Below, one piece after another: positions 2,894 to 31,547 of a DNA stretch of 35,263 nucleotides. The notes under the pieces were generated by a model, which ran no database searches, was not told where the DNA came from, and was given only the letters and a program-made list of their open reading frames with translations. This DNA comes from a bacterium (GTDB lineage: Bacteria; Arandabacterota; Arandabacteria; Arandabacterales; Arandabacteraceae), in assembly GCA_025774845.1 (NCBI GenBank), contig JALGZP010000010.1, forward strand, positions 46,106 to 81,368, given 5' to 3'. The stretch's first letter is position 1. Every line of letters starts with the position of its first letter. The translations under genes and the position numbers were made by a program.

Positions 2894-3286
2894 TTATCTG
2901 ATCCCTCCGGCCAGATCGTTCCCGACCACGACCGTCACATCCACAAAGAACGCGCTGCTTACCTGGTAGATAACGCCGCTTCCCGGCAGTACGGAGGCGA
3001 CCGTATGAGCTTTGCTTCTGTCCCCCGACCGGTCCACGACGAGTGTCTCCCGGTGGTCGAAGTCATCCGCGTTACCGACAAACATGACGTCGCAACCCTG
3101 ATCGACGAGTACCTCGCCGACTTCACGGGCTATGCCCCCAACACCACAACCGTTTAAGACCTCAACAACGATCGGGACCTCGCACACGCTCCCCTGGCTC
3201 CCCGTCTGTGACAGGGTTGTCCAGGCGAAATAGATCACAATTATCGCAAGGCCCAGCATCACCGCTTTGACCAGAGCCCATGTCAT
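2894..3286 (-). CDS. membrane-anchored LytR_C domain protein
   Basis: The product has 130 residues starting MTWALVKAV. A longer open frame runs upstream but overlaps the HIT gene in an implausible, Arg-rich stretch. The ATG at 3286 overlaps the HIT stop codon as ATGA, which decides the start. One N-terminal membrane helix (about residues 5-24, LVKAVMLGLAIIVIYFAW) is followed by a domain matching the LytR_C family: VEVLNGCGVGGIAREVGEVL, then a strand-helix pattern ending FFVDVTVVVGND. LytR_C is found C-terminal to LytR-CpsA-Psr enzymes and also alone, and its exact role is unclear. An envelope protein facing the periplasm is the most that can be said. Confidence 0.75.
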   Translation of the reverse strand: MTWALVKAVMLGLAIIVIYFAWTTLSQTGSQGSVCEVPIVVEVLNGCGVGGIAREVGEVLVDQGCDVMFVGNADDFDHRETLVVDRSGDRSKAHTVASVLPGSGVIYQVSSAFFVDVTVVVGNDLAGGIR

Positions 3287-3777
3287 CGGTCTGAATCGAG
3301 CCCGTTCCCGGCCTCGAGGATCTTGCTGTAGGTGTCTGCCAGGGTCTCCGGCATCACCTTTACCTCGGACAGAACGGGCATGAAATTGGAGTCCCCTTCC
3401 CAGCGAGGGACTATGTGCATATGAACATGGCCGGGAAAGCCTGCACCCGCACACTTGCCTATGTTCATACCGATATTGAAGCCATCGGGATTGAGCGCGC
3501 GTCTCAGGATCTTCTCGCTCCACGCCACGAGATCCATCAACTCACACGCTTCAGCCTCGGAGAGATCGCTCACACAGTTCGTATGCCTGTAAGGTGCGAC
3601 CATAAGGTGCCCGGTCGTATATGGATACAGATTCATGATCACATATGCGAGTTTGCCTCGCCGCACTATGAAGGTGTCCTTGTCCGAATCGGATTCGACC
3701 TTCTTGCAGAATATGCAGTCGCTACTGTCGGCGTTTTCTATGTATTCCATTCTCCAACCCGCGCTTATTATCTTCAT
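3283..3777 (-). CDS. HIT family nucleotide hydrolase/transferase
   Basis: The product has 164 residues. The histidine triad HVHMH lies at 117-121, followed by IVPRW. An N-terminal CIFC pair at 21-24 is the usual half of a structural zinc site in this family. The pattern resembles the bacterial Ap4A phosphorylase/AMP-hydrolase-like HIT group. These enzymes act on nucleoside phosphate bonds through a covalent nucleotidyl-His intermediate. The substrate cannot be read from sequence. The ATG at 3777 has GGGAG 9 nt upstream and overlaps the panC-glmU gene by 56 nt. An alternative ATG at 3750 has GGAG only 2 nt away. The downstream LytR_C gene starts in its stop codon. Confidence 0.88.
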   Translation of the reverse strand: MKIISAGWRMEYIENADSSDCIFCKKVESDSDKDTFIVRRGKLAYVIMNLYPYTTGHLMVAPYRHTNCVSDLSEAEACELMDLVAWSEKILRRALNPDGFNIGMNIGKCAGAGFPGHVHMHIVPRWEGDSNFMPVLSEVKVMPETLADTYSKILEAGNGLDSDR

Positions 3778-5395
3778 TCTTCTGTCTCCCGGAGTAAATC
3801 TTCCTCACCGCGTTGAGTTCCGCAGCAGTGTTAACCCCGAATCCCTCGGTGTGATCATCGATCAGAACCGCTTCGACGCGTCCCCCTCGAGACCTGATGG
3901 ACTGTATCGAATCCGGCAGATAGTACTCCATCTGGACATTGCTTGCCGTCAGAGTGAGAAGTGAATCAAACAGAGGTCCCGCCTTGAAGCAATAGAGGCC
4001 GACGTTTATCTCACTGATCTTCCGCACCTCCCTGTCGGCATCACGCTCCTCCACGATCTTTACAAACGCCCCCTTCTGATTCCTCACGATCCGACCGTAG
4101 CCGCGTGCATCGGGTACCGATACCGTTGCAAAAGTGATGGCGTTGCTGTGCCTGGCGTGCTGGGCGAGCAGCCGTTTCACCGTCGACGCCCGTACGAGCG
4201 GAACGTCACCCGAAAGCACCAGGATGTCCCCGGAAAAACCCGCAAGCAGAGGATAGACCTGCAGTACCGCGTGGCCTGTGCCTCTCTGGACGTCCTGTCT
4301 TACCGTACCTACCCGCAGCTTCTTCATAAGCGGTTGGAGTTTCTCGCTCTTGTGGCCGACTATCGCGAAAACATCCTTTACCCCCGCGGCCCTCGAGGCT
4401 CGAACCACGTGTTCGACCATCGGCACTCCACCTATCTCATGGAGTAGTTTCGGTCTCGGCGATTTCATCCGCTTCCCCTCGCCTGCAGCGAGTATCACGC
4501 ATACGGTGCCGCGCTTCTGGCGGCCCCGCGAACGGCGGCCAACGCGTGAGTCCACGGCGATATTGTCTATCAACCGGGCCCGCCCGACCAGAGCGGCAAC
4601 AGCGATCCGTGCTTCGGAATCAACATAGCGGATGTCATCAAGTGAGACGGGATCGACGACGGCGGCATACTCGACCTTTGTGACCCCGCTATCCACCAGG
4701 AGCGACATGATGCGGTCTTTGATCACATGGGAACGGCGTTCTCCGCTTGCGACGAGCAGTCTGGCAAGCTCAAGCGACCTGAAAAGTGAAGTGGCAATCC
4801 CTCTCTCTTCCTCCGAAAGGTATGCATTCCGGGAACTCAGAGCCAAACCGTCCTTGTCCCGTACGGTCGTCACACCGACGATCTCCACGGGGAGCCCGAG
4901 ATCACCGACCATCCGCTTAATGATCACCAGCTGCTGGTAGTCTTTCTCACCGAAGAAAGCCTTATCAGGCATGACGGCCAGCAACAGTTTAAGTACAACC
5001 ACACACACGCCGTCAAAATGGTCCGGTCTCGTCAAACCGCAGAGCTTGCCCCGTAGATCGTCGACACCCACCGACGTCCCGAAGTCCCGCGGATAGACCT
5101 CCCGCACAGAGGGGACGAAGATCAGATCGCAGCCGTATCGTGCGAGAAGACGCTTATCCCGTCGAAGATCCTTTGGATAACGGTCGAGGTCCTCGGCAGG
5201 TCCGAATTGCTTCGGGTTCACAAAGATGCTGACGACCACAACATCACAGGTACGCCGGCACTCCTCAACGAGCGCCAGGTGGCCGTCATGCAGGTAGCCC
5301 ATTGTCGGGACAAAACCGATGGACTTGCCCTTCTTCCTGGCCCTGGCGAGCTCCCGTCTCAGGTCACCGGTCTTTCTTATTGTCTTTAGCATCAT
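3722..5395 (-). CDS. panC: pantothenate synthetase fused to GlmU-type uridylyltransferase domain
   Basis: One uninterrupted frame of 557 residues holds two enzymes. Residues 1-281 are a complete PanC (pantoate plus beta-alanine to pantothenate): PTMGYLHDGHL at 30-40, FVNPKQFGP at 58-66, EKDYQQL near 150, LALSSRNAYL near 185, and the normal PanC end RARLIDN. After a basic linker of about 15 residues (RRSRGRQKRG), residues 297-545 match the N-terminal uridylyltransferase of GlmU: ILAAGEGKRM, PKLLHEIGG, QRGTGHAV, LVLSGDVPL, GYGRIVR, EINVGLYCF, EYYLPDSI and FGVNTAAEL. GlmU is normally about 450 residues with a C-terminal left-handed beta-helix acetyltransferase. That half is missing here, and the frame ends within about 25 residues. 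No in-frame ATG with a ribosome binding site separates the halves. It overlaps panB by 32 nt, as expected for a pan operon. The reason for coupling the two activities is unknown. Confidence 0.88.
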   Translation of the reverse strand: MMLKTIRKTGDLRRELARARKKGKSIGFVPTMGYLHDGHLALVEECRRTCDVVVVSIFVNPKQFGPAEDLDRYPKDLRRDKRLLARYGCDLIFVPSVREVYPRDFGTSVGVDDLRGKLCGLTRPDHFDGVCVVVLKLLLAVMPDKAFFGEKDYQQLVIIKRMVGDLGLPVEIVGVTTVRDKDGLALSSRNAYLSEEERGIATSLFRSLELARLLVASGERRSHVIKDRIMSLLVDSGVTKVEYAAVVDPVSLDDIRYVDSEARIAVAALVGRARLIDNIAVDSRVGRRSRGRQKRGTVCVILAAGEGKRMKSPRPKLLHEIGGVPMVEHVVRASRAAGVKDVFAIVGHKSEKLQPLMKKLRVGTVRQDVQRGTGHAVLQVYPLLAGFSGDILVLSGDVPLVRASTVKRLLAQHARHSNAITFATVSVPDARGYGRIVRNQKGAFVKIVEERDADREVRKISEINVGLYCFKAGPLFDSLLTLTASNVQMEYYLPDSIQSIRSRGGRVEAVLIDDHTEGFGVNTAAELNAVRKIYSGRQKNEDNKRGLENGIHRKRRQ

Positions 5396-6197
5396 CGTAG
5401 CTTTCGTCGAGGGAAGGGAATGCTCCCGTTCTCACATCCCCTACATATCCCGACAGGGCTTTGAGGATGTCCGGTTTGAGATCCGCGTATTTCCTTACGA
5501 ACTTCGGAACGTAACCGTCATAGAGGCCCAGGATATCGTGACAGACAAGGACCTGCCCGTCACAATGCGGTCCCGCACCTATTCCGATCGTGGGTATGCT
5601 CAGCTTCTCGGTTATCTCCTTGGCCAGTTTCCAGGGCACTCCTTCGAGCACTATGGCAAAACATCCGGCCTCCTCGAGTGCGAGCGCATCGTCGATGATC
5701 GCCTCACGTCCCCTGCCGGTCTTGCCCTGAACCTTGTACCCGCCGAACCTTCTTATAGCCTGCGGGGTGAGCCCGATATGACCCATGACCGGTATCTTGG
5801 CATCGCCGATAGCCTTTGCAGTCGACGCCCTGCAGATGCCGCCCTCTATCTTGACAGCGTCCGCACCGCCTTCCTTTATCATCCTTCCCGCATTCCTGAG
5901 CGCTTCTGACGGAGACACCTGGAAAGACATAAAGGGCATGTCCGCAATGACCAGGGCTGCGGGTTTGGCTCTTGATACGGCTTTTACGTGACAAAGCATC
6001 TCGTCCATGGTAACCGGGAGCGTGGTTTCGTATCCGAGTATGACCATGCCCAGCGTGTCCCCGACCAGGATGATATCGATACCGGCCTGATCGGCCAGCC
6101 TGGCGGTAGGATAATCATAGACTGAGAGCATGGCGATCCGTTTGCCCTTGCGTTTCATCGCCATTACGACGGGGACTGTGACCTTTTTTCTCTCCAT
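5364..6197 (-). CDS. panB: 3-methyl-2-oxobutanoate hydroxymethyltransferase
   Basis: PanB makes ketopantoate from alpha-ketoisovalerate using methylenetetrahydrofolate, the first committed step toward pantothenate and CoA. From the ATG at 6197 the protein has 277 residues, typical for the family. It shows the PanB signature blocks: AMLSVYDYPTARLADQAGID, LVGDTLGMV, DMPFMSFQVS, KIEGG, PVMGHIGLTPQ, FGGYKVQGK, LEGVP, IGIGAG and DGQVLVCHDILG. An upstream ATG at 6272 would add 25 atypical residues inside the kinase gene. The chosen ATG follows the kinase stop by 1 nt and has GGAGGG about 11 nt upstream. The next gene, panC, overlaps its end, so the two pathway enzymes are co-translated. The nearby folate genes fit its cofactor need, though that link is inference. 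Confidence 0.95.
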   Translation of the reverse strand: MERKKVTVPVVMAMKRKGKRIAMLSVYDYPTARLADQAGIDIILVGDTLGMVILGYETTLPVTMDEMLCHVKAVSRAKPAALVIADMPFMSFQVSPSEALRNAGRMIKEGGADAVKIEGGICRASTAKAIGDAKIPVMGHIGLTPQAIRRFGGYKVQGKTGRGREAIIDDALALEEAGCFAIVLEGVPWKLAKEITEKLSIPTIGIGAGPHCDGQVLVCHDILGLYDGYVPKFVRKYADLKPDILKALSGYVGDVRTGAFPSLDESYDDAKDNKKDR

Positions 6198-6198
6198 G

Positions 6199-6837
6199 CT
6201 AGTCCGACCCTCCCCTGTAATACATCGTGCCACGTTTGTGGGTATTGATCGTTTCGATGAGCCTGTCGACATGCGATTGTGAGGCCGGCAGATCGAGTGA
6301 ATCGGTATTCACCATCACAAGCGGCGTCTCGTCATAGTGGAAGAAGAAATGGTTGTAGGCCCGGTTAAGGGTTTCTATGTAATCCCGTGGCATGTTCTTC
6401 TCAAACGGTCTCCCGCGTTTATGGATTCTGTCCATAAGTACATCCGTGCCGGCCTGCAAGTAGACCACGATGTCCGGCCGGGCTATGTCCCTCTCCAGTA
6501 TCTTCACGAGTTTCTCATACAGCATAAGCTCATCGTCGTTGAGATTGATGTATGCGAATATCCGGTCCTTCGCGAAAATATAATCACTTATGACCCGCTG
6601 TGCAAAGAGACTTGCCTGCGCGAGCTCGATCTGCTGTCTGTATCTTGAAAGGAGAAAGAATATCTGGGTCTGGAAGGCGTAACTGCGCATATCATCATAG
6701 AAGTTCTTCAGGAACGGGTTTTCCTCAACCTCTTCAACCTGAAGCTGGGCGCCGAGCTTTTCAGAAAAAATCGTGGCAAGCGTCGTTTTACCGACGCCGA
6801 TCACGCCCTCGATCGCTATGTATCCAGGTTCCGCCAT
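6199..6837 (-). CDS. deoxynucleoside kinase (COG1428 type)
   Basis: The product has 212 residues. Residues 5-19 hold the P-loop (GYIAIEGVIGVGKTT). The family block SDYIFAKDRIFAYINLNDDEL is present, followed by LYEKL. The arginine-rich lid (DRIHKRGRPFE) is followed by YIETLNRAYNHFF. This group of bacterial kinases phosphorylates deoxyadenosine, deoxyguanosine or deoxycytidine in salvage of dNTP precursors. Which base is preferred cannot be decided here. The ATG at 6837 has GGGGAG 7 nt upstream and overlaps the end of folK by 22 nt. A folK-kinase pairing is familiar in other bacteria, including cases where the two are fused. It is cytoplasmic. Confidence 0.88.
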   Translation of the reverse strand: MAEPGYIAIEGVIGVGKTTLATIFSEKLGAQLQVEEVEENPFLKNFYDDMRSYAFQTQIFFLLSRYRQQIELAQASLFAQRVISDYIFAKDRIFAYINLNDDELMLYEKLVKILERDIARPDIVVYLQAGTDVLMDRIHKRGRPFEKNMPRDYIETLNRAYNHFFFHYDETPLVMVNTDSLDLPASQSHVDRLIETINTHKRGTMYYRGGSD

Positions 6838-7310
6838 GAGATCTCCCCGCTCTCCTCGATCTCTTCAAGATAACCCCTCACACACCGTCCCGTCAAAGGA
6901 TGAACAAGATCCGGTGCTATCTCCGCGAGAGGCGCCAGAACGAATGCACGTTCGCAGATATGGGGATGTGGGATGCTGAGGTCCTCCTCATTTATGACCT
7001 CACTACCATAGAGGAGTATATCGATGTCGATCCGTCTCGGGCCCCACCTGGCGCCCTCCTCTCTTCCCAGCTCCCGCTCGATGCTCTTGACCCTTGTAAG
7101 CAGTTCCTTCGGGCTTAAGCGGGTGTCCACCTCCGCCACGGCATTGACGAAGTCTGGCTGGTCTTTGTTACCCCAGGGTCTGGTCTCGTACATACCGGAC
7201 AGCCGTGTTACCACGGTGTCTCCCTCACGATTGATACAGGCAACCGCTCTTGTTATCATGCCTATCCTGTCACTGACGTTGCTTCCGAGCCCCAGGTAAC
7301 ACTGAACCAA
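6816..7310 (-). CDS. folK: 2-amino-4-hydroxy-6-hydroxymethyldihydropteridine diphosphokinase (HPPK)
   Basis: The enzyme transfers pyrophosphate from ATP to the pterin made by FolB, ahead of dihydropteroate synthesis. The signature RWGPRRIDIDILLYG and the N-terminal YLGLGSN, ETRPWGNKDQPDFVNAV and IPHPHICERAFVLAPL blocks are all present. I prefer the TTG at 7310 (164 aa): it follows the folB stop by 4 nt, has GAGG 9 nt upstream, and gives the usual short N-terminus (VQCYLGLGSN). A GTG at 7325 would add 5 residues but has a poor ribosome binding site. It lies between folB and the deoxynucleoside kinase. Confidence 0.93.
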   Translation of the reverse strand: MVQCYLGLGSNVSDRIGMITRAVACINREGDTVVTRLSGMYETRPWGNKDQPDFVNAVAEVDTRLSPKELLTRVKSIERELGREEGARWGPRRIDIDILLYGSEVINEEDLSIPHPHICERAFVLAPLAEIAPDLVHPLTGRCVRGYLEEIEESGEISWRNLDT

Positions 7311-7314
7311 TGCC

Positions 7315-7695
7315 CTAATCCTCACGAAAACGCTTGATCTCTACTGCAACCGACGCCACCCCGGTAGCGATCGGGAGGTTGACCTTCTTCACCCTGACCA
7401 CGATCTCGACCGGGCAGAACTTCTCAAGGACCTTGGCGGCGATATCCGCGGCAAGACTCTCAAGAAGAAGAAACTCCTCATCACCGGCTATCTTCTCCAC
7501 AAGGGTGCATACCGCTTCGTAGTTTACCGTCTTGCGGAGATCATCACCGGCTATCGCGTCTTTAAGATCCAGGTACAGCTCAAGATCTATGATCAGCCGC
7601 TGGCCTACCTGCCGTTCGGCTTCATCAACACCGTGGTGACCGAGCACATTGATGCCCTCGATCTTTATCTTGTCAAGTCCGCTCACGTCATCCAA
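7315..7695 (-). CDS. folB: dihydroneopterin aldolase
   Basis: FolB cleaves 7,8-dihydroneopterin to 6-hydroxymethyl-7,8-dihydropterin, the substrate of FolK encoded next. The 126-residue product has the family marks: IKIEGINVLGHHGVDEAER near the N-terminus, the VNYEAV block, LLLESLA before the conserved helix, and VRVKKVNLPI with the catalytic lysine region. The start is TTG at 7695: GAGGT lies 9 nt upstream, while the next candidate (GTG at 7686) sits too far from it. It overlaps the aminotransferase stop by 13 nt, so translation is probably coupled. Confidence 0.93.
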   Translation of the reverse strand: MDDVSGLDKIKIEGINVLGHHGVDEAERQVGQRLIIDLELYLDLKDAIAGDDLRKTVNYEAVCTLVEKIAGDEEFLLLESLAADIAAKVLEKFCPVEIVVRVKKVNLPIATGVASVAVEIKRFRED

Positions 7696-20071: not shown

Positions 20072-21214
20072 CTAGTCACTGTGCCTCCTCATAAAAGCAG
20101 GAGTTTCGTAATCTACGTCGAGGCAGGCATCCACAGAGACCCTTGTCTCACTGTCGACTTCCGGGATGTCACGTCTCTTGAACGCCCTCTGGAGAAAACT
20201 GCCGTTGATCCGGCCGGGCTCACTGTGGTCCCGAAGAATCGATCTGTCCTCGGTCGAGCTCTTGCCGATTCCGGTTGCGATCACAGTCACTCTGATCTCA
20301 TCGTTGAGGGTTTCGTCGATAGCTGTTCCGAAAATCACATTCGCTTCGGATCCCGCGGCGTCATAGATCGTATTCGCTGCATCGGATATCTCCGAAAGCG
20401 ACATCAGGGAGCCACCCGTAACATTTATCAGGAGGCCTTTCGCACCTGCGATGCTGACATCATCAAGAAGCGGGCTGCGGAGAGCTCTATTAGCGGCTTC
20501 CTTTGCCCTGTCATCACCTGACGCACTGCCGGTACCCATGATCGCATCACCCATTTCCGACATTATCGTTCTGACGTCTGCGAAATCAAGGTTGATTTCT
20601 CCAGGTATCGTTATCAGATCGGAAATGCCCCGGGTGGCCTTGAGGAGTATCTCATCAGCCATGGCGAACGCGTCCAGGAGCGGCGTGTCCTTCGCAACCA
20701 CCTGGAGGAGTTTCTGGTTCGGTATCCCGATTACCGTATCAACCTGCCGCTTGAGCTCGTCGATACCTTCCTGCGCCTGCTCCTTCCGTCGCTTGCCCTC
20801 GAAGGCAAACGGTTTCGTGACTATCGCAACAGTCAGGGCTCCGGACGCTTTTGCAATCTCCGCGACGACAGGGCTGGCACCCGTACCCGTCCCACCACCC
20901 ATACCGGCGGTGATAAAAATCATGTCCGCTCCGTCAACGACCTCGCTCATCACGTCACGGTCTTCCTCGGCCGCACGTCTTCCGATCTCCGGATCACCTC
21001 CGGATCCAAGCCCCTTGGTTATGCGGCTTCCGATCTGGATCTTGGTACCGGCCGACGACTTTGTAAGAGCCTGGCAATCGGTGTTAACGGCGACAAACTC
21101 AACACCCTGCAGATTCGAGAAGATCATACGGTTGACTGCATTGTTGCCTGCACCGCCGACGCCGATCACTTTCATCTTTGCGCTGCCAACGTTTTCGATT
21201 TCGAACTGGATCAT
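20072..21214 (-). CDS. ftsZ: cell division GTPase FtsZ
   Basis: FtsZ polymerises with GTP into the ring that guides septum formation. The 380-residue product has the nucleotide loop GGAGNNAVNRM near 20, the tubulin signature GGGTGTG at 106-112, and the T7 catalytic loop NLDFADVRTIM near 205. After a short variable linker comes a canonical C-terminal tail (DYETPAFMRRHSD), the binding site for FtsA and other partners. The linker is short, so the whole protein is near the minimal size. GAGGT lies upstream of the ATG, 18 nt after ftsA. The ftsA-ftsZ order is the usual one. Confidence 0.98.
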   Translation of the reverse strand: MIQFEIENVGSAKMKVIGVGGAGNNAVNRMIFSNLQGVEFVAVNTDCQALTKSSAGTKIQIGSRITKGLGSGGDPEIGRRAAEEDRDVMSEVVDGADMIFITAGMGGGTGTGASPVVAEIAKASGALTVAIVTKPFAFEGKRRKEQAQEGIDELKRQVDTVIGIPNQKLLQVVAKDTPLLDAFAMADEILLKATRGISDLITIPGEINLDFADVRTIMSEMGDAIMGTGSASGDDRAKEAANRALRSPLLDDVSIAGAKGLLINVTGGSLMSLSEISDAANTIYDAAGSEANVIFGTAIDETLNDEIRVTVIATGIGKSSTEDRSILRDHSEPGRINGSFLQRAFKRRDIPEVDSETRVSVDACLDVDYETPAFMRRHSD

Positions 21215-21232
21215 TGAACCTCACCTCTGTTC

Positions 21233-22465
21233 CTAGAACACCGTACTAACCCATCTTCTCACTTTCACCAATACGTTTCCTATTCCTCCCTGCGTGTCGA
21301 CGGCGGTCACACCCCCTTTCACAATTGCATTACCGGCGAAGTGTAGGAGACCTACACCCGTTGACATTCTTGGATCATTGACGTATTCCACGAGGCCACC
21401 GACGTTTTCAGGCGTGCCCATTCTGGCAGGCATCGAAAGAACATCCTCGGCAAGATCTTCAATGCCGGTGATCAGCGATGTCCCACCCGTGAGCACAACC
21501 CCCGCGCCAAGAACCTCATAGTATTCACTCTTCATCAGCTGCCCCTTGACGAGATAGAGTATCTCTTCAAGACGCGGCCTGATTATCTGGGCGATAACCT
21601 TCCTTGATATCGGTCTCGTCTTCCGGCCCTGCACACCCGGCACGTCGATGATTTCGTGCTCAGAGGTCGACGCCCGTGCACAGCCGTACTCGATCTTCAG
21701 GTTTTCCGCCTGGCCGAACGGCGTACGCAGTCCGATCACCAGGTCGTTGGTAACATTGTTTCCCCCGAAAGAAAGGACAGCCGTGTGCCGGATCGCGCCG
21801 TCCTTGAATACAGAGATGTCCGTCGTGCCGCCGCCGATGTCAACCACCGCAACGCCCAGGTCCATCTCCTCCTGAGTCAGGACGGCGAGACCTGTGGCGA
21901 GCGGTTGGAGCACCAGGCCTGAGACGTCGACACCTGCCCGTTTCACGGACTTGATCACGTTCTGCGCGCAGGTGGTGGCACAGGTTATGATATGTGCCGC
22001 AACCTCTAGCCGTATGCCTGACATGCCGATGGGCAGGTCTATCCCGCCCTGGTCGTCGACGACGAATTCCTGCGGTATCACGTGGAGTATGAGCCGGTCA
22101 CTGGGCACAACCACCGCACGTGCGGCGTTAACGACCCGCTCGACATCATGCTCGCTTATTTCCTTGTCCGGTCTTGAAACCGCAACAACACCCGTGCTGT
22201 TCATTCCCCGCACGTGATCACCCGATATACTCACGAATGCCCCGCGTGCCGAGTGGTCGGTCATGATCTCAGCTTCCTGAATGGCCGCTTCAATCGCCGA
22301 GATCGTCTTCTCTATGTCAACTATCACGCCCCTGCGGATCCCTTCACACTTCTTGGTCCCGACACCGATGATCGAGGGCTTACCGCTCTTGTCGATCTCG
22401 GCTACGAGTGCGCTAACCTTGGTGGTACCGAGATCCAGTCCCATCACCTTTGCCGGTAAAGCCAA
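21233..22465 (-). CDS. ftsA: cell division actin-like protein FtsA
   Basis: FtsA tethers FtsZ to the membrane and links it to the septal synthases. The 410-residue product has the actin-like phosphate loops (MGLDLGTTKVSALVAEID and VVDIGGGTTDISVF), an adenosine-binding block (VVLTGGTSLITGIEDLA), and the FtsA-specific 1C region before it. It ends with a short amphipathic helix (VLVKVRRWVSTVF), the usual membrane-targeting tail. Translation begins at TTG (22465), fixed by an excellent AAGGAGGT 7 nt upstream. No in-frame ATG fits as well before the conserved first strand. Confidence 0.96.
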   Translation of the reverse strand: MALPAKVMGLDLGTTKVSALVAEIDKSGKPSIIGVGTKKCEGIRRGVIVDIEKTISAIEAAIQEAEIMTDHSARGAFVSISGDHVRGMNSTGVVAVSRPDKEISEHDVERVVNAARAVVVPSDRLILHVIPQEFVVDDQGGIDLPIGMSGIRLEVAAHIITCATTCAQNVIKSVKRAGVDVSGLVLQPLATGLAVLTQEEMDLGVAVVDIGGGTTDISVFKDGAIRHTAVLSFGGNNVTNDLVIGLRTPFGQAENLKIEYGCARASTSEHEIIDVPGVQGRKTRPISRKVIAQIIRPRLEEILYLVKGQLMKSEYYEVLGAGVVLTGGTSLITGIEDLAEDVLSMPARMGTPENVGGLVEYVNDPRMSTGVGLLHFAGNAIVKGGVTAVDTQGGIGNVLVKVRRWVSTVF

Positions 22466-22468
22466 TTG

Positions 22469-23119
22469 TCATACCTCCTTGTCGAATCCGCGAGGCGCCC
22501 GGTCCCACTCAACAACTACCTGGCGCCCGAACCTGAGATCTATCCTGGCAACATGCATGTTCTGTTGCCTGGCCTGCATGAGTATCTGACCGAGCCTCTC
22601 AACCTTGGCCACATAGGCGCCGTGGCCGAGCTCGGCCAGTGTGCCGCCTGTGAGAATCACCCTGGGATGTTCGAGGTCTTCAAGATTGACCTCAGAGAGT
22701 ACATCCATAAGAAAGGGAGAGAGCTCGAAAGCCCGGACTATCGCGAGTCCCAGCACCGCCTCGGGGGTCGAGAGTCTTACACCGGGTTCACAGCCGGCCG
22801 GGAGAAAACCCGTGAGTGCCGGAAGATCGCCCGCACCGGATGCGCTGTCGCACCAGGTGACATATCCCTCCCGGTCAAGCCCCATGACCATACCCTGGCC
22901 GGTGATCAGCGCCCACGTCTCTCCGGGAGACCTTCCCTCCGAATCTGCATCGCGCGGTCCAAGCACGGTGTCCTTCACCTCGGCCAGGTAGCCCACGGCC
23001 CGCACGGCCACTCTTTCGACGGCGTCCGTGAAAGCATAGTTGACATCACCTGTTACCTTGAATGTCAGCCCGCCCGAGATCAGCCCGATCACGACCAGCG
23101 AAAGCACGCTTACTTTCAA
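22469..23119 (-). CDS. ftsQ: FtsQ-like divisome protein (divergent)
   Basis: This 216-residue protein sits exactly where ftsQ is expected, between murB and ftsA. It has one membrane helix at 4-20 (VSVLSLVVIGLISGGLTF) after a very short cytoplasmic N-terminus and a periplasmic part. The final block (ERLGQILMQARQQNMHVARIDLRFGRQVVVEWD) matches the C-terminal beta domain of FtsQ. The POTRA domain after the anchor is hard to recognise, and the protein is shorter than E. coli FtsQ (276 aa). The assignment relies on position plus topology plus the C-terminal match. The start is TTG with GAGGAG 6 nt upstream. Confidence 0.7.
   Translation of the reverse strand: MKVSVLSLVVIGLISGGLTFKVTGDVNYAFTDAVERVAVRAVGYLAEVKDTVLGPRDADSEGRSPGETWALITGQGMVMGLDREGYVTWCDSASGAGDLPALTGFLPAGCEPGVRLSTPEAVLGLAIVRAFELSPFLMDVLSEVNLEDLEHPRVILTGGTLAELGHGAYVAKVERLGQILMQARQQNMHVARIDLRFGRQVVVEWDRAPRGFDKEV
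22473..22480 (-). promoter_or_regulatory. ribosome binding site fixing the TTG start of ftsA
   Basis: AAGGAGGT lies 7 nt before the TTG, within the last codons of ftsQ. This is close to the full complement of the 16S tail, so a rare start codon is paired with a near-perfect binding site. Confidence 0.75.
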
Positions 23120-23125
23120 GTCGAT

Positions 23126-23131
23126 CTCCTC
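23126..23131 (-). promoter_or_regulatory. ribosome binding site fixing the TTG start of ftsQ
   Basis: GAGGAG overlaps the murB stop region and lies 6 nt before the TTG at 23119. No ATG precedes the membrane helix in this frame. Confidence 0.6.
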
Positions 23132-24032
23132 AGTCCCTTCCGATCACGTTTATTTCGAGCTCCAGGTCGATTCCGTACTCGTCCTGGACCTTGTCTCTTG
23201 TCTCGTTTATCAGGTCGAGGATCTCCCCGGCCGTAGCCCCACCGGTGTTCACTACCCAGTTGCCGTGTATCATGGAGATCTCGGCCCCTCCCTTTCGGGA
23301 ACCTTTAAGACCTGCATGGTCTATCACTCTCCCCGCCGCATCGTCCGGAGGGTTCTTGAACACACAGCCGGCTGTATTCTCCCCGGTCGGCTGGGTCGTC
23401 CTTCTCATATTCAGGTACTCCTCGACCTTGTGACGGGCTTCCTCAACCTCACACCTATACCCGGCGAGGAGGACATCGGTCACAATCCAGGTCTTGTCGA
23501 TGCCGGAGTGCCTGTATCCGAAGCCAAGATCTCCCGGTGAGAGCCTGCGCGCGGTCAGATCGTCGGTCAGCACTCCAAGCTCCACGAGCCGGCTTGAGAC
23601 CCAGACGTCTCTTGATCCTGCGTTTGTAACCACAGCACCTCCAACGGTGCCGGGTATACCGGCAAGAAACTCCAGACCGCCTATGCCCGACGACGTCGCC
23701 TTACTCACTGTTTCCGCAAGGCTCGCACCGGCACCCGCATGGATGTGTTCTCCCTCGGCCTCGATCGTGGCAAAGTCATCAACGAGCCGGATCACCACCC
23801 CTCCCACGCCACCGTCCCTGACCAGGACGTTGGAGCCGTTACCCAGGGCCATCACGGGCAGCGAGTGGGTCTTTGCGAGTGCAAGCAACCTCTTCAAGGC
23901 ATCGATGTCCGATACCCAGACCATGAGATCACAGGGTCCACCCACGGCGAAGCTGGTGTGAAGGGACAGGAGCTCGTCCTTTCTTGCAGCTATGCCTGCG
24001 ATCTGGTCTATCTCTTCAAACACATCAGTCAC
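23130..24032 (-). CDS. murB: UDP-N-acetylenolpyruvoylglucosamine reductase
   Basis: MurB reduces UDP-GlcNAc-enolpyruvate to UDP-MurNAc using FAD and NADPH. The 300-residue product is of the shorter type II form. FAD-binding blocks are HTSFAVGGPCDLMVW, LGNGSNVLVRDGGVGG and AGASLAETV...FLAGIPGTVGGAVVTNAGS, with GYRHSGI following. At the usual proton-donor site the motif reads AGCVFKNP, with Cys223 in place of the more common Ser. Some active MurB proteins have the same change. It starts with GTG with GAGGAGG 8 nt upstream, overlapping the murC stop by 8 nt. Confidence 0.96.
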   Translation of the reverse strand: MTDVFEEIDQIAGIAARKDELLSLHTSFAVGGPCDLMVWVSDIDALKRLLALAKTHSLPVMALGNGSNVLVRDGGVGGVVIRLVDDFATIEAEGEHIHAGAGASLAETVSKATSSGIGGLEFLAGIPGTVGGAVVTNAGSRDVWVSSRLVELGVLTDDLTARRLSPGDLGFGYRHSGIDKTWIVTDVLLAGYRCEVEEARHKVEEYLNMRRTTQPTGENTAGCVFKNPPDDAAGRVIDHAGLKGSRKGGAEISMIHGNWVVNTGGATAGEILDLINETRDKVQDEYGIDLELEINVIGRD

Positions 24033-25398
24033 CTGCCAGCCTCCTCATAGTGTCATCGCCGGTCTTCCAGATATCCCCGGCGCCGAGTGTTATCACAACA
24101 TCCCCCGGCTCAAGCGAGCCGGCCAGGTGCTCCACGATGGCATCCCTGTCGGGCATGTAGAGCACATGCCTGTGGCCGCTTGTGAGCGCCGCCTTCGCGA
24201 CGGACTCCGCCGTCACCCCGGGAATCGGCTGCTCGCCGGCCGCGTATATCGATGTGACGATGACGGAATCGGCATCATAGAAGCTCCGGCCCAACTTCTC
24301 CCAGAGCGCCTGTGTCCTCGAATAGCGATGCGGTTGGAACACCGCCACTATCCTGCCACCCCACATCGCTTTCACCGTCTCGAGCGTTGCGCTTATCTCC
24401 GTAGGGTGGTGGGCATAGTCGTCGACGAAGACGACCCCGTTGGCTTCACCACGCTTTTCCAGCCTCCTCGAGATACCCGTGAACTGTGACAGTCCCTCGC
24501 TTATAGACGGAAACGGGATATCGAGCTCGAGGCCCACAGCCACGGCCGCCAGAGCGTTTGCTATGTTGTGCTGACCCGGCATCCGGAGCAACACACTCCC
24601 CAGTTTGCTCTGTCTCAGGCTGACGTTGAAAGTGACCTTCTGGCCGTCAAGAGCGACATCGGTAGCCCTCACGTCTGCCTGCTGGGAAAAACCATATGTG
24701 ATTACGCGTCTTATTATCCGCGGTATTATCGCCTGGACGTTCTCCTCGTCCAGGCAAACCACCGCTGCACCATAGAAGGGCACCTTGTTCGCAAACTCGA
24801 CGAACGAGGCCTTTATGGCTTCGATGTCGTTGTAATGATCGAGGTGCTCCTCATCGACCGTTGTTACGACGGCAACGTTCGGCGAGAGTCTCAGGAAGGA
24901 GCCATCGCTCTCGTCGGCCTCGGCGACCAGGTACGGTCCACCGCCGAGTTTGGCGTTCGTACCGAGTGCTTTCAGTCTCCCACCGACTATGATGGTCGGA
25001 TCGAGACCGGCAGCGGCCATAACCAGCCCGACAAGCCATGTCGTAGTTGTCTTGCCGTGAGCACCGCCGACGGCGATTCCCTGTTTCATACGCATGAGTT
25101 CGGCAAGCATCTCCGCTCTCGGTATCACCGGTATCCCGCGCCTGCGCGCTTCCAGCACCTCGACGTTGTCACGCTTTATGGCGGAGGAGTAGACCACCAC
25201 ATCGGCCCCTTCAACCCCGGCAGCGCTGTGCCCTTTGATGACGTTGCCGCCGAGTTCGGTCAGCCGCTGGGTCACGTCGGTCGTCGCAAGATCGGTGCCG
25301 CTGACCTTGTAGCCGAGATTGAGCAGGAGCTCCGCGATTCCACTCATGCCCGTGCCACCGATCCCAACCAGATGAATGTGTTTTACTTTGCCGAACAT
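24025..25398 (-). CDS. murC: UDP-N-acetylmuramate--L-alanine ligase
   Basis: MurC adds the first residue of the stem peptide, L-alanine, to UDP-MurNAc. The 457-residue product has the MurC N-terminal signature HLVGIGGTGMSGIAELLLN, the P-loop AVGGAHGKTTTTWLV, the central EADESDGSFL block, the substrate site (EEHLDHY, IANALAAVAVG), and VFVDDYAHHPTEI and FQPHRYSRTQAL in the C-terminal domain. The ATG at 25398 overlaps the end of murG by 16 nt. It is cytoplasmic. Neighbours murG and murB follow the same pathway. Confidence 0.98.
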   Translation of the reverse strand: MFGKVKHIHLVGIGGTGMSGIAELLLNLGYKVSGTDLATTDVTQRLTELGGNVIKGHSAAGVEGADVVVYSSAIKRDNVEVLEARRRGIPVIPRAEMLAELMRMKQGIAVGGAHGKTTTTWLVGLVMAAAGLDPTIIVGGRLKALGTNAKLGGGPYLVAEADESDGSFLRLSPNVAVVTTVDEEHLDHYNDIEAIKASFVEFANKVPFYGAAVVCLDEENVQAIIPRIIRRVITYGFSQQADVRATDVALDGQKVTFNVSLRQSKLGSVLLRMPGQHNIANALAAVAVGLELDIPFPSISEGLSQFTGISRRLEKRGEANGVVFVDDYAHHPTEISATLETVKAMWGGRIVAVFQPHRYSRTQALWEKLGRSFYDADSVIVTSIYAAGEQPIPGVTAESVAKAALTSGHRHVLYMPDRDAIVEHLAGSLEPGDVVITLGAGDIWKTGDDTMRRLAGD

Positions 25399-26531
25399 AA
25401 CTCAGCCAGCACCGTCGCGAGCTTTGAAAGCCTGCCCTTCCTGAGAGCGAGTTCCAGCACGCGCAAAGAGATATCGCGCGCCGCATCCGGTCTTCCCAGC
25501 TCACGCGAGCTGCCGGACATCGTCGTCATTCTGTCAGTGTCATAGATGATTGAGACTATGGCCTCCGCGAGCCGCTCGCCGCACAGTTCCTCATCCCGGA
25601 TCACAGAGGCCGCTCCGATGCGCTCAAGAAGCTTTGCATTCGCCTCCTGGTGGTCTCCCGCGGCATAGGGATAGGGAATGAGAATCGACGGCAACCCGCA
25701 CGCCGTGACCTCCGCAACCGACCCCGCTCCCGCCCTGCAGACCACGAGATCGCTCGCAGCGTAGGCAGAGCCTATGTCATCGATATAAGGATACACCCTG
25801 CACAACGCACTGATCTTCTGTACGGCCTGCGACACGTACTCATAGTCGGCTTTGCCGGTCTGAGCAACGAATTGCAGGTCATCCCGCCCTTGAAGCGCGG
25901 TGGCCGCCTCAACAAAGGCCTTGTTTATGCTTGAGGCCCCGCGGCTTCCGCCGAAAACGAAAACGGTCTTCCGCGCGGACTCGAGATTGAACATGCTGAT
26001 TCCCTTTTCCCTGGTATTACCGAGAAGGGTCGGTCTCGTCGGTACGCCCGTGACCCTGAGATTCGTGCCCTTGGCGAAGTGGCGGACCGACTCCTGAAAT
26101 CCGAGGGCGACTTCATCGACAAAACGCGCCAGCAACATCGTCGTCCTGCCGGGAACACTGTTGGGCTCGATCAGGAGGATAGGTACGCCGAAAAGCCTGG
26201 CCGCGACCACGAAGGGACCGCTCGCATAACCCCCGGTTCCTATGACGACCGCGGGCCGGTCCGTCATCAGTATAACAAGCGACTGCAGCAGCCCGACAAA
26301 GGCGCATATGAGCGAGAGAGCGGATCCCGCACTCAAACCGGTCGGGAGCGGCCGTGATATGATATGATGCATCCTGTAGCCCAGCCCGGGTACTATGCTT
26401 CCTTCAAGCCCGCGCCGCGTTCCGACAAACGACACCTCGACCTGCTTCCCTGCCCCCACCAGGCTGTTTACGACAGCGACGGCCGGATATATGTGTCCGC
26501 CCGTACCACCACCCGCGATCGCGATTTTCAT
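25383..26531 (-). CDS. murG: UDP-GlcNAc:lipid I GlcNAc transferase MurG
   Basis: MurG turns lipid I into lipid II on the inner face of the membrane. The product has 382 residues from the ATG at 26531. This ATG overlaps the ftsW stop as ATGA and has GGAGGG 11 nt upstream; the ATG at 26549 lacks a site. The N-terminal glycine loop GGGTGGHIYPAV, the second loop FGGSRGASSINKAF, and the donor-binding block CRAGAGSVAEVTACGLPSILIPYPYA are all present. Hydrophobic surface segments around 75-110 would dock to the membrane. Confidence 0.97.
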   Translation of the reverse strand: MKIAIAGGGTGGHIYPAVAVVNSLVGAGKQVEVSFVGTRRGLEGSIVPGLGYRMHHIISRPLPTGLSAGSALSLICAFVGLLQSLVILMTDRPAVVIGTGGYASGPFVVAARLFGVPILLIEPNSVPGRTTMLLARFVDEVALGFQESVRHFAKGTNLRVTGVPTRPTLLGNTREKGISMFNLESARKTVFVFGGSRGASSINKAFVEAATALQGRDDLQFVAQTGKADYEYVSQAVQKISALCRVYPYIDDIGSAYAASDLVVCRAGAGSVAEVTACGLPSILIPYPYAAGDHQEANAKLLERIGAASVIRDEELCGERLAEAIVSIIYDTDRMTTMSGSSRELGRPDAARDISLRVLELALRKGRLSKLATVLAELCSAK

Positions 26532-27667
26532 TTGACGAGGGCCCTCCATCTGGAAGGTTGGAGGTCAATAAAACTCTGTCTCCGCCTCGAGACACCCAGA
26601 AGCATTCCGCATGAGGCGAGCAGTATCATCGATGATGTCCCGCCATAGCTCATGAAAGGCATCGGCAATCCCGCCGTCGGCAGAAGCCCCGTGCACACGC
26701 CTGCGCTTACGCAGAAGTAGGCGGCGATAGCCATGGTGATCCCCGTGGCCATCACCGAAGAGAAAACTGTTTGCGCGCGTCTCGCGGCCTTAAGACCCCG
26801 CCACACAAAGACAAAAAACAAGCCTATGATCCCAAGCATACCCAGCAGACCGATCTCTTCGGCGGTGATCGCAAAGACGAAATCCGTGTGAGCGTCGGGA
26901 ACAAAGAGATACTTCTGGTTACCCATACCCACCCCGACGCCCTTCAGACCACCGGCCCCGATCGCTATCAGCGACTGCCAGAGGTGATAGCCTGCGCCCT
27001 CTGCGGAGGAACTGAGATGTGCATCGATCCTCTCCCAGTTATAGCCCGTGACCCGCATGAACATCAGCATTGCGCCTGCGCAGCCCGCAAGACTGGCGGA
27101 GAGGTGAAGCGGATGGGCGCCACCGGCGAACAGGACAACGAGTCCGATAAGAAGGAGCATCGCGGCCGTGCCGATATTGGGTTCCATGGCGACAAGCAGT
27201 ACGACCAGTCCGATCACAAGGAAAGCCGGCAGGAACCCGTTGGAGAACCGTCTGATGTCATACCGCCTCCTCGAGACGAAATCGGCCAGATAGACCACCA
27301 GCGCGATCTTGGTAACCTCCGACGGCTGAAATGAAAAACCTCCGACCTTCAGCCACCTGCTTGCCCCCCGGACACTGTGACTCAGACTTGTCGGCAGCAA
27401 TGTCAACACCAGGAGGACGATCGAAACGATCATCAACGGCCTGGCAAGTGTTCTGAGTGCGTTCTCCCCAACCCTTGCAAAGAGGAACAACAGGAGGAAC
27501 CCGAATACGATTCTCACCACATGCTTCCGGAGGAAGTAGCTCGGGACCTTTGAGCCGGAGATCTCCGGTGCTATAGTATAGCTTGAGCTGTAGACCATCA
27601 CGAGTCCGACCAGTGTAAGGGCCAATACGGCAAACAAGAGAATCTTGTCCATCCCGGCCTCATCCAT
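26528..27667 (-). CDS. ftsW: septal peptidoglycan glycosyltransferase FtsW (SEDS family)
   Basis: This is a SEDS polymerase for septal glycan strands, working with the FtsI transpeptidase. The 379-residue product has about nine to ten membrane segments. Family blocks seen are GLVMVYSSS, the conserved large loop with GVGVGMGNQKYLFVPDAHTDFVFAITAEEIGLLG (carrying the acidic residues of the active centre), and LPTAGLPMPFMSYGGTSS near the end. The ATG at 27667 overlaps murD by 8 nt; an ATG at 27652 is also possible. Cytoplasmic ends are short. Confidence 0.96.
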   Translation of the reverse strand: MDEAGMDKILLFAVLALTLVGLVMVYSSSYTIAPEISGSKVPSYFLRKHVVRIVFGFLLLFLFARVGENALRTLARPLMIVSIVLLVLTLLPTSLSHSVRGASRWLKVGGFSFQPSEVTKIALVVYLADFVSRRRYDIRRFSNGFLPAFLVIGLVVLLVAMEPNIGTAAMLLLIGLVVLFAGGAHPLHLSASLAGCAGAMLMFMRVTGYNWERIDAHLSSSAEGAGYHLWQSLIAIGAGGLKGVGVGMGNQKYLFVPDAHTDFVFAITAEEIGLLGMLGIIGLFFVFVWRGLKAARRAQTVFSSVMATGITMAIAAYFCVSAGVCTGLLPTAGLPMPFMSYGGTSSMILLASCGMLLGVSRRRQSFIDLQPSRWRALVK

Positions 27668-29078
27668 CTGAAGGCGCCTCGTTTTCCTGTTTGAGTTTCA
27701 TCACTATTTCCTTGAAGACACGGCCCCGGTGTTCGAAGTCATCAAACATGTCGAAGCTGGCACAACCGGGTGAAAGCAGGACCACATCCGAAGGTACGGC
27801 AACACCCAGAGCACCCCGTACGGCCGCCTCGAGATCGCCGGCCAACCTCACCTCGGTCAGGGCCGAGAACGCATCCCGGAGCTTCTCACGCGCCTCGCCG
27901 ATCGCATACACCATCTTGACCTTCTCACCAACCAGCGTTGCTACCTGGCTGAAATCCCCACCCTTGTCCCTCCCACCGGCGATCAGCACCACCGGGGATG
28001 TGACGGCTTTGAGTGCCGTCTCGAGTGAATCCACGTTGGTCGCCTTCGAGTCGTTTATGAAGTCGACCCCGCCTATGGAGCCGGCGAACTCAAGTCTGTG
28101 TTCAAGCCCCTCAAACTCTCTTACGCCCCTGCGTATGACTTCGGGTTCAAGGCCGAGCGCTGTGGCCGCCAGGGAGGCTGCAAGACTATTGGCAAGGTTA
28201 TGCGGGCCTCGAATCCTCAAATCTTGTGTGAGGAAAATCTCTCTCTCTTCACGACCGGCCCTGACAACCACACGCTCGCCCCTTACGAAAGCGCCCTCGT
28301 CGAGCTCCTCCGTGAGACTGAAAAACTGCTTCCTGCAGATTGCATCACGGGACGCTTTCAAAGACTCTTTATCGTCATGGTTTATGATTGCTATGTCGTC
28401 CGCTGTCTGGTTGGCAAACATCTGCGCCTTGGACTCCACGTAGGCTTCATACGAGGGGTACCGGTCAAGATGATCCGGTGTGATGTTGAGAAGCACCGAA
28501 ACCGACGGGCTGAAACTCAGGCACGTATCAAGCTGGAAACTCGAAACCTCTATCACCATCGTCCATTCCGGACCGAGCCCCCGGGCAATGGAAGAGATCG
28601 GGAGTCCGATGTTTCCCCCGACCCGGATCCTGCTGGAGGCACCGCTCAAAATCGTACCCAGGAGGCTCACGGTCGTGCTTTTACCGTTGGTCCCGGTTAC
28701 GGCAACAAACTTCGCATCGCTGAGACACCATGCCAGCTCGACCTCCCCTATCACGGTCTTGCTCTGCCCGCGTGCCCAGCGCACAAGTTCGATCTCGAGC
28801 GGTACCCCCGGGCTCATCACCAGGAGATCGCAGTCACGGGCAAACTCAATCGAGTTCCTGCCCAGCTCGACCTGTACGTCTCGCTTGACCAGCTCGGACA
28901 ATGCAGAGTCCAGATCCTCGACTCTCCTGGTATCCGTAGCCTTTACAGTCGATCCGATATCCCGAAGCACGCCGCACGCCGCCAAACCACTCCTCCCGAG
29001 TCCGACGACAAGTACCTTCATGTCTCTGAGTTCGGTTGCGGTCAGTGCTTTTCGCTTTTCCATGGTTCCAGTTATCAT
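27660..29078 (-). CDS. murD: UDP-N-acetylmuramoylalanine--D-glutamate ligase
   Basis: MurD adds D-glutamate to UDP-MurNAc-L-Ala. The 472-residue product carries VLVVGLGRSGLAACGVLRDIG (nucleotide-sugar domain), P-loop VTGTNGKSTTVSLLG, LNITPDHLDRYPSYEAYVESK, INDSKATNVDS and VLIAGGRDKGGDFS, then LLSPGCASFDMFDDFEHRGRVFKE at the C-terminus, all MurD-specific. The ATG at 29078 overlaps the mraY stop as ATGA. It is cytoplasmic. Order mraY-murD-ftsW-murG is the common dcw order. Confidence 0.98.
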   Translation of the reverse strand: MITGTMEKRKALTATELRDMKVLVVGLGRSGLAACGVLRDIGSTVKATDTRRVEDLDSALSELVKRDVQVELGRNSIEFARDCDLLVMSPGVPLEIELVRWARGQSKTVIGEVELAWCLSDAKFVAVTGTNGKSTTVSLLGTILSGASSRIRVGGNIGLPISSIARGLGPEWTMVIEVSSFQLDTCLSFSPSVSVLLNITPDHLDRYPSYEAYVESKAQMFANQTADDIAIINHDDKESLKASRDAICRKQFFSLTEELDEGAFVRGERVVVRAGREEREIFLTQDLRIRGPHNLANSLAASLAATALGLEPEVIRRGVREFEGLEHRLEFAGSIGGVDFINDSKATNVDSLETALKAVTSPVVLIAGGRDKGGDFSQVATLVGEKVKMVYAIGEAREKLRDAFSALTEVRLAGDLEAAVRGALGVAVPSDVVLLSPGCASFDMFDDFEHRGRVFKEIVMKLKQENEAPSDG

Positions 29079-30160
29079 CTCAGTTTGAGTGTGCTCAGTG
29101 TGAACAGCGCAAGCAGCGCAGAAAGAATCCAGAACCTTACAACGAGCTTGGATTCCGACCAGTTCATCAGCTCGAAATGATGATGAAGCGGTGCCATCTT
29201 GAACACCTTCCTGCCTGTAAGTCTGAATGAGATAACCTGTATGATCACCGAAAGCGCTTCGACGACGAATATCCCGCAGACCATGGCAAGCAGTATCTCC
29301 TTCTTGATCAGGATTGCGACTGTGCCGAGCGCGCCTCCCAGCGCCAGCGAGCCCGTATCGCCCATAAATACACGGGCGGGATGGGCATTGAACCAGAGGA
29401 ACCCCAACGACGCGCCGACAAGCGAACCGCAGAAGATCGTGAGTTCACCCGCCTGTTTGAGATAGAGAATGTTGAGGTAACTCGAGAATGTCGCGTGCCC
29501 TGTCATATAGGTTATCCCGACGAATGCCACACCCGCGAAAACAAACATCCCGACGGCCAGTCCGTCCAGCCCGTCGGCGAGGTTGACGGCATTCGACGCC
29601 CCGGTGATCACGAGGATCACGAGGGGGATATAGAAGATCCCGAGGTCGGGGAAGACGTTCTTGAAAAATGGAACCGTCGTCTTGGTGGCAAGTTCAGGGT
29701 TCTCGGGAAAGGCCACAAGCACGGTTCCGATCGCAAGCCCGAGTAGAGCCTGCCCGGCTACCTTGTACTTGCCGACAAGCCCGGCCGGCTTGCACTTCAC
29801 CACCCTCAGGTAGTCATCCACGAATCCCATCGCACCGAGCCAGCAGGTCGCTACCACACTGATGATGATGTACGGGTTCGTGAGATTCGCCCAGAGCAGT
29901 GTGGGCACGACGACTGCGAGAATGATCATGATACCACCCATCGTCGGTGTCCCCTGCTTCCCTGCATGTCTTTCCGGCGTATGGTTTCGTATGCCGTTGA
30001 GGAACTTGCGGTTGGCCAGCATGCGAATCAGCGCGGGACCGAATACGAAACAGATGAAGAGTGATGTCACGGTCGCATATGCTGTTCTGAAGGTTATGTA
30101 CCTGAAGATATTGAAGGCCGATATATACTCCCTCAGGGGATACAGGAGATGATAGAACAA
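29075..30160 (-). CDS. mraY: phospho-N-acetylmuramoyl-pentapeptide transferase
   Basis: MraY transfers phospho-MurNAc-pentapeptide to undecaprenyl phosphate, forming lipid I. The 361-residue product has about ten membrane helices. Signature blocks are KQGTPTMGGIMII, the aspartate pair in MGFVDDYLRV, the catalytic region NAVNLADGLDGLAVG, FMGDTGSLALGGALG, and the cytoplasmic PLHHHFE histidine loop. Translation begins at TTG (30160), immediately after the murF stop, with a GGGAGGG ribosome binding site 6 nt upstream; no closer ATG exists before the first helix. Confidence 0.97.
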   Translation of the reverse strand: MFYHLLYPLREYISAFNIFRYITFRTAYATVTSLFICFVFGPALIRMLANRKFLNGIRNHTPERHAGKQGTPTMGGIMIILAVVVPTLLWANLTNPYIIISVVATCWLGAMGFVDDYLRVVKCKPAGLVGKYKVAGQALLGLAIGTVLVAFPENPELATKTTVPFFKNVFPDLGIFYIPLVILVITGASNAVNLADGLDGLAVGMFVFAGVAFVGITYMTGHATFSSYLNILYLKQAGELTIFCGSLVGASLGFLWFNAHPARVFMGDTGSLALGGALGTVAILIKKEILLAMVCGIFVVEALSVIIQVISFRLTGRKVFKMAPLHHHFELMNWSESKLVVRFWILSALLALFTLSTLKLR

Positions 30161-30161
30161 A

Positions 30162-31547
30162 TCAGGCCCTCCCCTCTACAGCTTGCCGCTTGAGGAGATC
30201 GCAGATCTCTTCAAGACCCGCCATTCTCGATCCCTTGACCAGAACGGCATCACGCGGTTCGACCAGCTGTGACATCTGCTGCATGGCCTCCGTCTTGTCT
30301 CCAAAGAACACGGCGGCATCAGGGCTCATTCCCGACGCCCTGGCCTCATCCACCGTCACCCGTGTCAAACCGCCTATCCCGATCAGGACGTCAACGCCCG
30401 ATGAGGTGACCCACGCACCGACTTCGCGATGAAGCCGGTCTGCATCTTCTCCCAGCTCGAGCATCTCGCCCATGACAAATACTTTCCTGGCCTCCCCCAT
30501 CGCGGAGAACACGTCGAGAGCGGCCTTCACCGAATCGGGATTGGCGTTGTAGGAGTCGTCTATTATCGTCAGATCGGCCGCCTTCACGACCTTCATCCTG
30601 AGGGGCTCGAAGTCCGCCAGAATACGGCAGGCGTCATCAGGTGAAATGCCGAAGAGACCGGCGGCGGCTATGGCGGCAGTCGCATTGTAGACATTGTGTG
30701 TCCCCGGCGTCTTGAGCCGCATGGCAACCTCGTTGACCGAGAATTCGACACCGCGGCCGTCGACCTGTCTTATGCCGGTTGCACGGAAATCGGCGGCCTC
30801 CTTGATACCAAATGTGACAAGATCGATATCGCTCCCGGCAATGGCCGAAAGCAGCAACGGGTCATCGGCGTTGACTATCCCCGTGCCACCCGGTTCAAGG
30901 CATCTCAGGATGTCCGTCTTCTCCCGCGCAATCTCTTCGACACAGCCGAAGTAACCGATGTGCGCCCTGCCCACATTCGTGATCAGCCCGACAGTGGGAC
31001 GCGCAATCTCACACAGCCTCCTGATCTCGCCCCTGTGGTTACTGCCGATCTCTATTACAAGCACCTGATCGGTTTCATCCAGCCCAAGAAGCGAAAGTGG
31101 GACACCTATGTGATTATTGAAGTTGCCGGGGCTCTTGTGGACCCGCATCCTGCTTGCGAGCAACATCGCCAGCATGTCCTTCGTGGTGGTCTTACCGTTC
31201 GAACCGCTTATGGTGACAACGGGCAGGTCAAGCCTGCTTCGTACATACGAGGCTAAGGCCTGGAGTGCGCCAAGCGGAGATTCGACGACGATCTGTATGA
31301 AATCCTCGCCGGTCCCCTCAACCGGGCGTGAAACCACAGCTGCGACCGCGCCCCGGGTGCGGGCTTCATTTACGAAGGTGTGCCCGTCCCGCATCTCGCT
31401 CTCGAGTGCAAAGAAGATCTCACCGGGCTTGAGCCGGCGCGTGTCGAACGAATAGCCGGTCACCATGAGATCCGCCGGTAGTGCCCCACCGGGGATGACC
31501 CGGGCGCCTGTGACCTTCTGGATTTCGTCGATGCTAAGCTTTGGCAT
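30162..31547 (-). CDS. murF: UDP-MurNAc-tripeptide--D-Ala-D-Ala ligase
   Basis: MurF completes the stem peptide by adding D-Ala-D-Ala. The product has 461 residues from the ATG at 31547. GGAG lies 10 nt upstream, and the frame overlaps murE by 14 nt. A TTG at 31562 would add only five residues. MurF marks are GYSFDTRRLKPGEIFFAL, P-loop ISGSNGKTTTKDML, SPGNFNNHIGVPLSLL, EIGSNHRGEI, IDDSYNANPDSV and VFVMGEMLELGEDA, and VLVKGSRMAGLE at the end. No ddl gene for D-Ala-D-Ala lies in this cluster. Confidence 0.97.
   Translation of the reverse strand: MPKLSIDEIQKVTGARVIPGGALPADLMVTGYSFDTRRLKPGEIFFALESEMRDGHTFVNEARTRGAVAAVVSRPVEGTGEDFIQIVVESPLGALQALASYVRSRLDLPVVTISGSNGKTTTKDMLAMLLASRMRVHKSPGNFNNHIGVPLSLLGLDETDQVLVIEIGSNHRGEIRRLCEIARPTVGLITNVGRAHIGYFGCVEEIAREKTDILRCLEPGGTGIVNADDPLLLSAIAGSDIDLVTFGIKEAADFRATGIRQVDGRGVEFSVNEVAMRLKTPGTHNVYNATAAIAAAGLFGISPDDACRILADFEPLRMKVVKAADLTIIDDSYNANPDSVKAALDVFSAMGEARKVFVMGEMLELGEDADRLHREVGAWVTSSGVDVLIGIGGLTRVTVDEARASGMSPDAAVFFGDKTEAMQQMSQLVEPRDAVLVKGSRMAGLEEICDLLKRQAVEGRA
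30167..30173 (-). promoter_or_regulatory. ribosome binding site fixing the TTG start of mraY
   Basis: GGGAGGG lies 6 nt before the TTG at 30160 and overlaps the last codons of murF. It supports TTG as the real start codon of mraY. Confidence 0.6.

Follow-up and report, generated by a model that had tools for sequence, protein, structure and literature searches.

A PanC-GlmU(N) fusion protein in Arandabacterota and a possible division of GlmU between two proteins in bacteria carrying TIGR03991

GlmU, an essential protein and a much-studied drug target, is commonly regarded as a single polypeptide with two functions. In the family TIGR01173 it combines an N-terminal uridylyltransferase domain (GlmU-N) with a left-handed beta-helix that forms the acetyltransferase half. 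A second family, the 'alternate GlmU' TIGR03991, is named bifunctional in NCBIfam, where it has the model type 'hypoth_equivalog'; it was not reported in the open-licence literature that we searched. Pantothenate synthetase, PanC (TIGR00018), also has a fused form, NF010004 or PanC-CMK, the bifunctional pantoate-beta-alanine ligase/(d)CMP kinase of cyanobacteria. A fusion of PanC to GlmU-N, as an architecture, was likewise absent from the open-licence papers searched.

Such a fusion is encoded in the window, by which we mean the whole stretch of 35,263 nucleotides of contig JALGZP010000010.1 that was analysed. It occupies positions 3722-5395 on the minus strand as a single frame of 557 amino acids, from an ATG at 5395 to a TAG ending at 3722, with no internal stops. 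The fusion and its neighbours are as follows.

2894-3523, minus strand: gene for a LytR_C-domain protein, immediately downstream of the HIT gene
3283..3777, minus strand: gene for a HIT-domain protein (PF01230), with its start at 3777 or 3750, within the 3' end of the fusion
3725..3754, minus strand: C-terminal tail of the fusion, ENGIHRKRRQ, conserved among the fused proteins
3755..4504, minus strand: GlmU uridylyltransferase (N-terminal) domain, residues 298-547, from profile and structure matches and motifs
4505..4549, minus strand: basic linker SRVGRRSRGRQKRGT of about 15 residues, residues 283-297, from comparison of relatives
4550..5395, minus strand: PanC (pantothenate synthetase) domain, residues 1-282, from TIGR00018 (above cut-off), PF02569 and catalytic motifs
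5364..6272, minus strand: panB (PF02548; TIGR00222 above cut-off), sharing 32 bp with the 5' end of the fusion
6199..6837, minus strand: deoxynucleoside kinase gene (dNK; PF01712), a member of the conserved gene order described below
6816..7325, minus strand: folK (HPPK; TIGR01498 above cut-off), a member of the same conserved order
7315..7695, minus strand: folB (dihydroneopterin aldolase; PF02152), upstream in the same gene run

The N-terminal half is a complete PanC, distinguished from other members of TIGR00018 by the extra C-terminal GlmU-N. In the profile search it scores 302.5 bits against a curated cut-off of 212.75, with residues 4-282 covering profile positions 2-283 of 283, and it matches PF02569 at E=6e-98. 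The catalytic motifs PTMGYLHDGH, FVNPKQF, GEKDYQQ and SSRN are present and largely invariant among 17 aligned sequences, and the motifs PTMGxLHxGH, KDxQQ and SSRN that mark PanC fall in invariant columns of the alignment. This half is the sole PanC match of the source genome. As in PanC-CMK, an N-terminal PanC is followed by an unrelated nucleotide enzyme, but here the partner is GlmU-N and not cytidylate kinase; NF010004 matches the PanC half only, ending at profile position 284 of 514 and, at 297 bits, falling short of its cut-off of 524, so the protein does not belong to that family.

The C-terminal half is the whole N-terminal uridylyltransferase domain of GlmU, placed behind PanC. Residues 299-547 align with TIGR01173 positions 3-249 of 452 at about 233-234 bits, and the match to PRK14354 (positions 2-243) reaches 245 bits; the next different family, archaeal GlmU, reaches 91 bits only. 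Among solved structures the best match is GlmU (E=1e-51, positions 5-241, covering the whole N-domain), far ahead of other sugar nucleotidyltransferases. The motifs LAAGEGKRM...PK, Q..QRGTGHA, SGDVP, GYGRIVR, EERDA, EINVG, EYYLPD and FGVNT, which include every element of the GlmU signature (LAAGxGxRM...PK, GTGHA, GD.P, E.N, G.NT), are kept in an alignment of 35 panC-linked or fused GlmU-N sequences. After the GlmU-N domain there is no left-handed beta-helix or hexapeptide helix, and the score lies well below the TIGR01173 cut-off of 366.85, so the protein is not a complete bifunctional GlmU. An AlphaFold model was confident for the PanC half and poor for the GlmU half because just three rows covered the latter, and it was not used.

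Is the open frame inherited? In a protein search of 60 genomes, the relatives G002, G003, G005 and G006 proved to encode the fusion without interruption, at 62-65% identity, and G001 and G004 to encode pieces of it, cut by contig ends alone. The fusion spans two families of one order. Since it is open and free of stops in those four relatives, no local base error is involved, and the frame is confirmed as real and inherited. The linker differs between relatives in length and sequence. Depending on the relative, the GlmU half is preceded by the codon GTA, GTG, GTT or GCC, so the fused relatives share no start codon in or just after the linker, and an internal translation start for GlmU-N was rejected on this ground. 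The preliminary description of this DNA, made from the sequence alone, had read the locus as an in-frame PanC-GlmU(N) fusion with a 15-residue basic linker, a genuine GlmU as its C-terminal half and no acetyltransferase half, and had proposed a search for the same fusion in related genomes; it gave no strand, and its reading was right on each of these points.

If the fusion supplies the uridylyltransferase, where is the acetyltransferase? A full GlmU above the cut-off was not found in the source assembly, which is 87% complete; the best match was the fusion itself. The same genome encodes, on contig C117, a TIGR03991 protein whose score of 384 bits clears the cut-off of 225, and this is a strong candidate for the separate acetyltransferase. 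The expectation in the preliminary description that a separate enzyme would be needed is thereby supported. Searches of this 87%-complete assembly for GlmS and GlmM were likewise negative. A scan of 80 genomes, most of which (nearly all) carry TIGR03991, gave GlmS, the entry step, above cut-off in 67; because three close relatives (G002, G005 and G007) have it above cut-off, its absence here is likely an assembly gap.

The distribution of the two families was surveyed across 290 genomes, with the best few candidates scored per genome. TIGR03991 is present in 82 and full-length GlmU in 116, and the two never occur together. A short GlmU is present in 60 of the 82 TIGR03991 genomes, and in the other 22 (one with a contig-cut and one with a weak match) there was no GlmU match at E<=1e-40. 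In some of these 22, therefore, either the divergent N-domain of TIGR03991 or another nucleotidyltransferase must act. In the fused relative G003, TIGR03991 was not found. GlmU-N adjoins or is fused to panC in 32 of 57 TIGR03991 genomes compared with 2 of 24 others (Fisher, hand tally, p=5e-5), a value that overstates independence, as do all such values where genomes share ancestry, and the counts carry more weight as a pattern than as probabilities. Some genomes, among them G123, G126, G150, G153, G260 and G287, encode GlmU-like proteins of about 340-380 amino acids that end around profile position 310-335 with just part of the helix; TIGR03991 is present as well in G150 and G287.

The explanation that we consider probable is a bifunctional PanC::GlmU-N protein, formed by loss of a stop/start, together with a split GlmU in which TIGR03991 acetylates. 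Two neighbours in an operon, panC and a separate glmU-N whose translation was coupled, would have lost the stop/start between them to give one polypeptide. Its N-terminal half would make pantothenate and its C-terminal half would convert GlcNAc-1-P and UTP to UDP-GlcNAc, with GlcN-1-P acetylated by the protein encoded on contig C117. The contribution of TIGR03991 would be its conserved left-handed helix, its own nucleotidyltransferase half appearing degenerate, and UDP-GlcNAc synthesis would run on a split GlmU. The gain from the join is probably co-expression and not channelling; the PanC dimer could perhaps also serve as a scaffold for a GlmU half that has no trimerising helix of its own.

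It is also conceivable, though in our judgement unlikely, that TIGR03991 is fully bifunctional, as its NCBIfam name states, and that the GlmU-N of the fusion is a redundant or specialised uridylyltransferase acting, for example, on another amino-sugar phosphate. The 22 TIGR03991 genomes in which GlmU-N was undetected would fit this, and PF13562, 'sugar nucleotidyl transferase', still matches the N-domain of TIGR03991. However, the nucleotide-binding signature GxGxR[MFL] occurs in none of 76 TIGR03991 proteins, in which the beta-helix half is highly conserved and the N-terminal half poorly so, and in some the N-domain is largely missing (G204, 256 amino acids). In addition, GlmU-N retains its GlmU motifs and a short GlmU co-occurs with TIGR03991. 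The nearest solved relative of the TIGR03991 helix is the archaeal enzyme 2ggo/5z09, by description a dual sugar-1-phosphate nucleotidylyltransferase. TIGR03991 proteins with a short or missing N-terminal domain are found at L213 (G204:C10), L216, L219, L214 and L217, and the genomes concerned retain a stand-alone GlmU-N.

The origin of the fusion can be seen in more distant genomes. In G007, of the same class, panC and glmU-N are two abutting genes, and panC followed by glmU-N, in the same order and on the same strand, was found in 29 further loci representing about 20 family labels and three Bacteroidota records. Often the stop of panC overlaps the start of glmU-N, or a few bases lie between them; in a few loci the distance ranges from some hundred bases up to about 1.2 kb. 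Most of these loci have panB upstream, folK and a deoxynucleoside kinase gene are frequent, and a HIT gene sometimes lies downstream. The order folK-dnk-panB-panC-glmU-N is common to many of them, as it is to the window, and the ancestry of the fusion lies in this operon. A separate stop and start between the halves, which the preliminary description had named as evidence against a fusion, is thus seen among the more remote relatives, though in none of the six nearest genomes. Because the two genes adjoin, and often overlap, in many families, loss of the stop would suffice for fusion, and comparison of these loci indicates that the fusion is a small step, by stop/start loss, from an old gene pair. 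The Bacteroidota loci L060, L072 and L082, as well as G060 and G088, were considered as further fusions and rejected, as each has separate overlapping genes.

A second fusion is present in G179, from an unrelated family. It is 549 amino acids long, 44% identical and free of stops, with both domains above cut-off and a different linker. In a tree of PanC and GlmU-N together it falls outside the clade of the window, and a single origin is compatible with the tree (p-AU 0.28); the fusion has arisen once or possibly twice. In the tree of GlmU-N, panC-linked copies were not resolved as one clade.

Does the join tie the making of CoA precursors to the supply of UDP-GlcNAc within a single polypeptide, as the preliminary description suggested? 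Retention of the fusion across two families, and its recurrence in G179, would be in keeping with such a role, which we nevertheless regard as very improbable. Adjacency explains the fusion, given that the genes belong to a mixed folate/nucleoside/pantothenate run; the two reactions have no intermediate in common; and the part of GlmU that is absent is the very half that uses acetyl-CoA. That two ordinary genes were joined by an assembly or sequencing error which deleted the stop codon separating them, as a draft of 198 contigs and the commoner separate state elsewhere might suggest, is already refuted by the frame conserved in independent relatives and can be dismissed.

For the 82 TIGR03991 genomes as a group, we put at about even the chance that 'alternate GlmU' is a GlcN-1-P acetyltransferase only, with a stand-alone GlmU-N, often in a folate/pantothenate operon, completing UDP-GlcNAc synthesis, so that GlmU is split and PanC has acquired its N-terminal half by fusion, possibly on two occasions. 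The pattern suggests that many bacteria split GlmU, and the family name 'bifunctional' may be half wrong. It would also offer a simple annotation rule, in that the missing GlmU half may be found adjoining or inside PanC.

The 3' end of the fusion (3722-3777) shares 29 to 56 bp with the start region of the HIT gene, according to which HIT start is used, and because of this overlap translation of the two genes is probably coupled. The DNA encoding the tail ENGIHRKRRQ also holds the HIT start region (GGAGAATGGAATACATAG), which accounts for the conservation of the tail; a special role for this basic C-terminus was considered and rejected, as the overlap is a sufficient explanation. The minus strand also carries, from 20072 to 34940 and thus some 15 kb away from the fusion, a division and cell wall (dcw) cluster with all its genes on that strand. 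It encodes a PBP, three Mur ligase-type proteins, an MraY-type glycosyltransferase, FtsW, a MurG-type protein, a further Mur ligase, MurB, FtsA and FtsZ, and represents the pathway that consumes UDP-GlcNAc.
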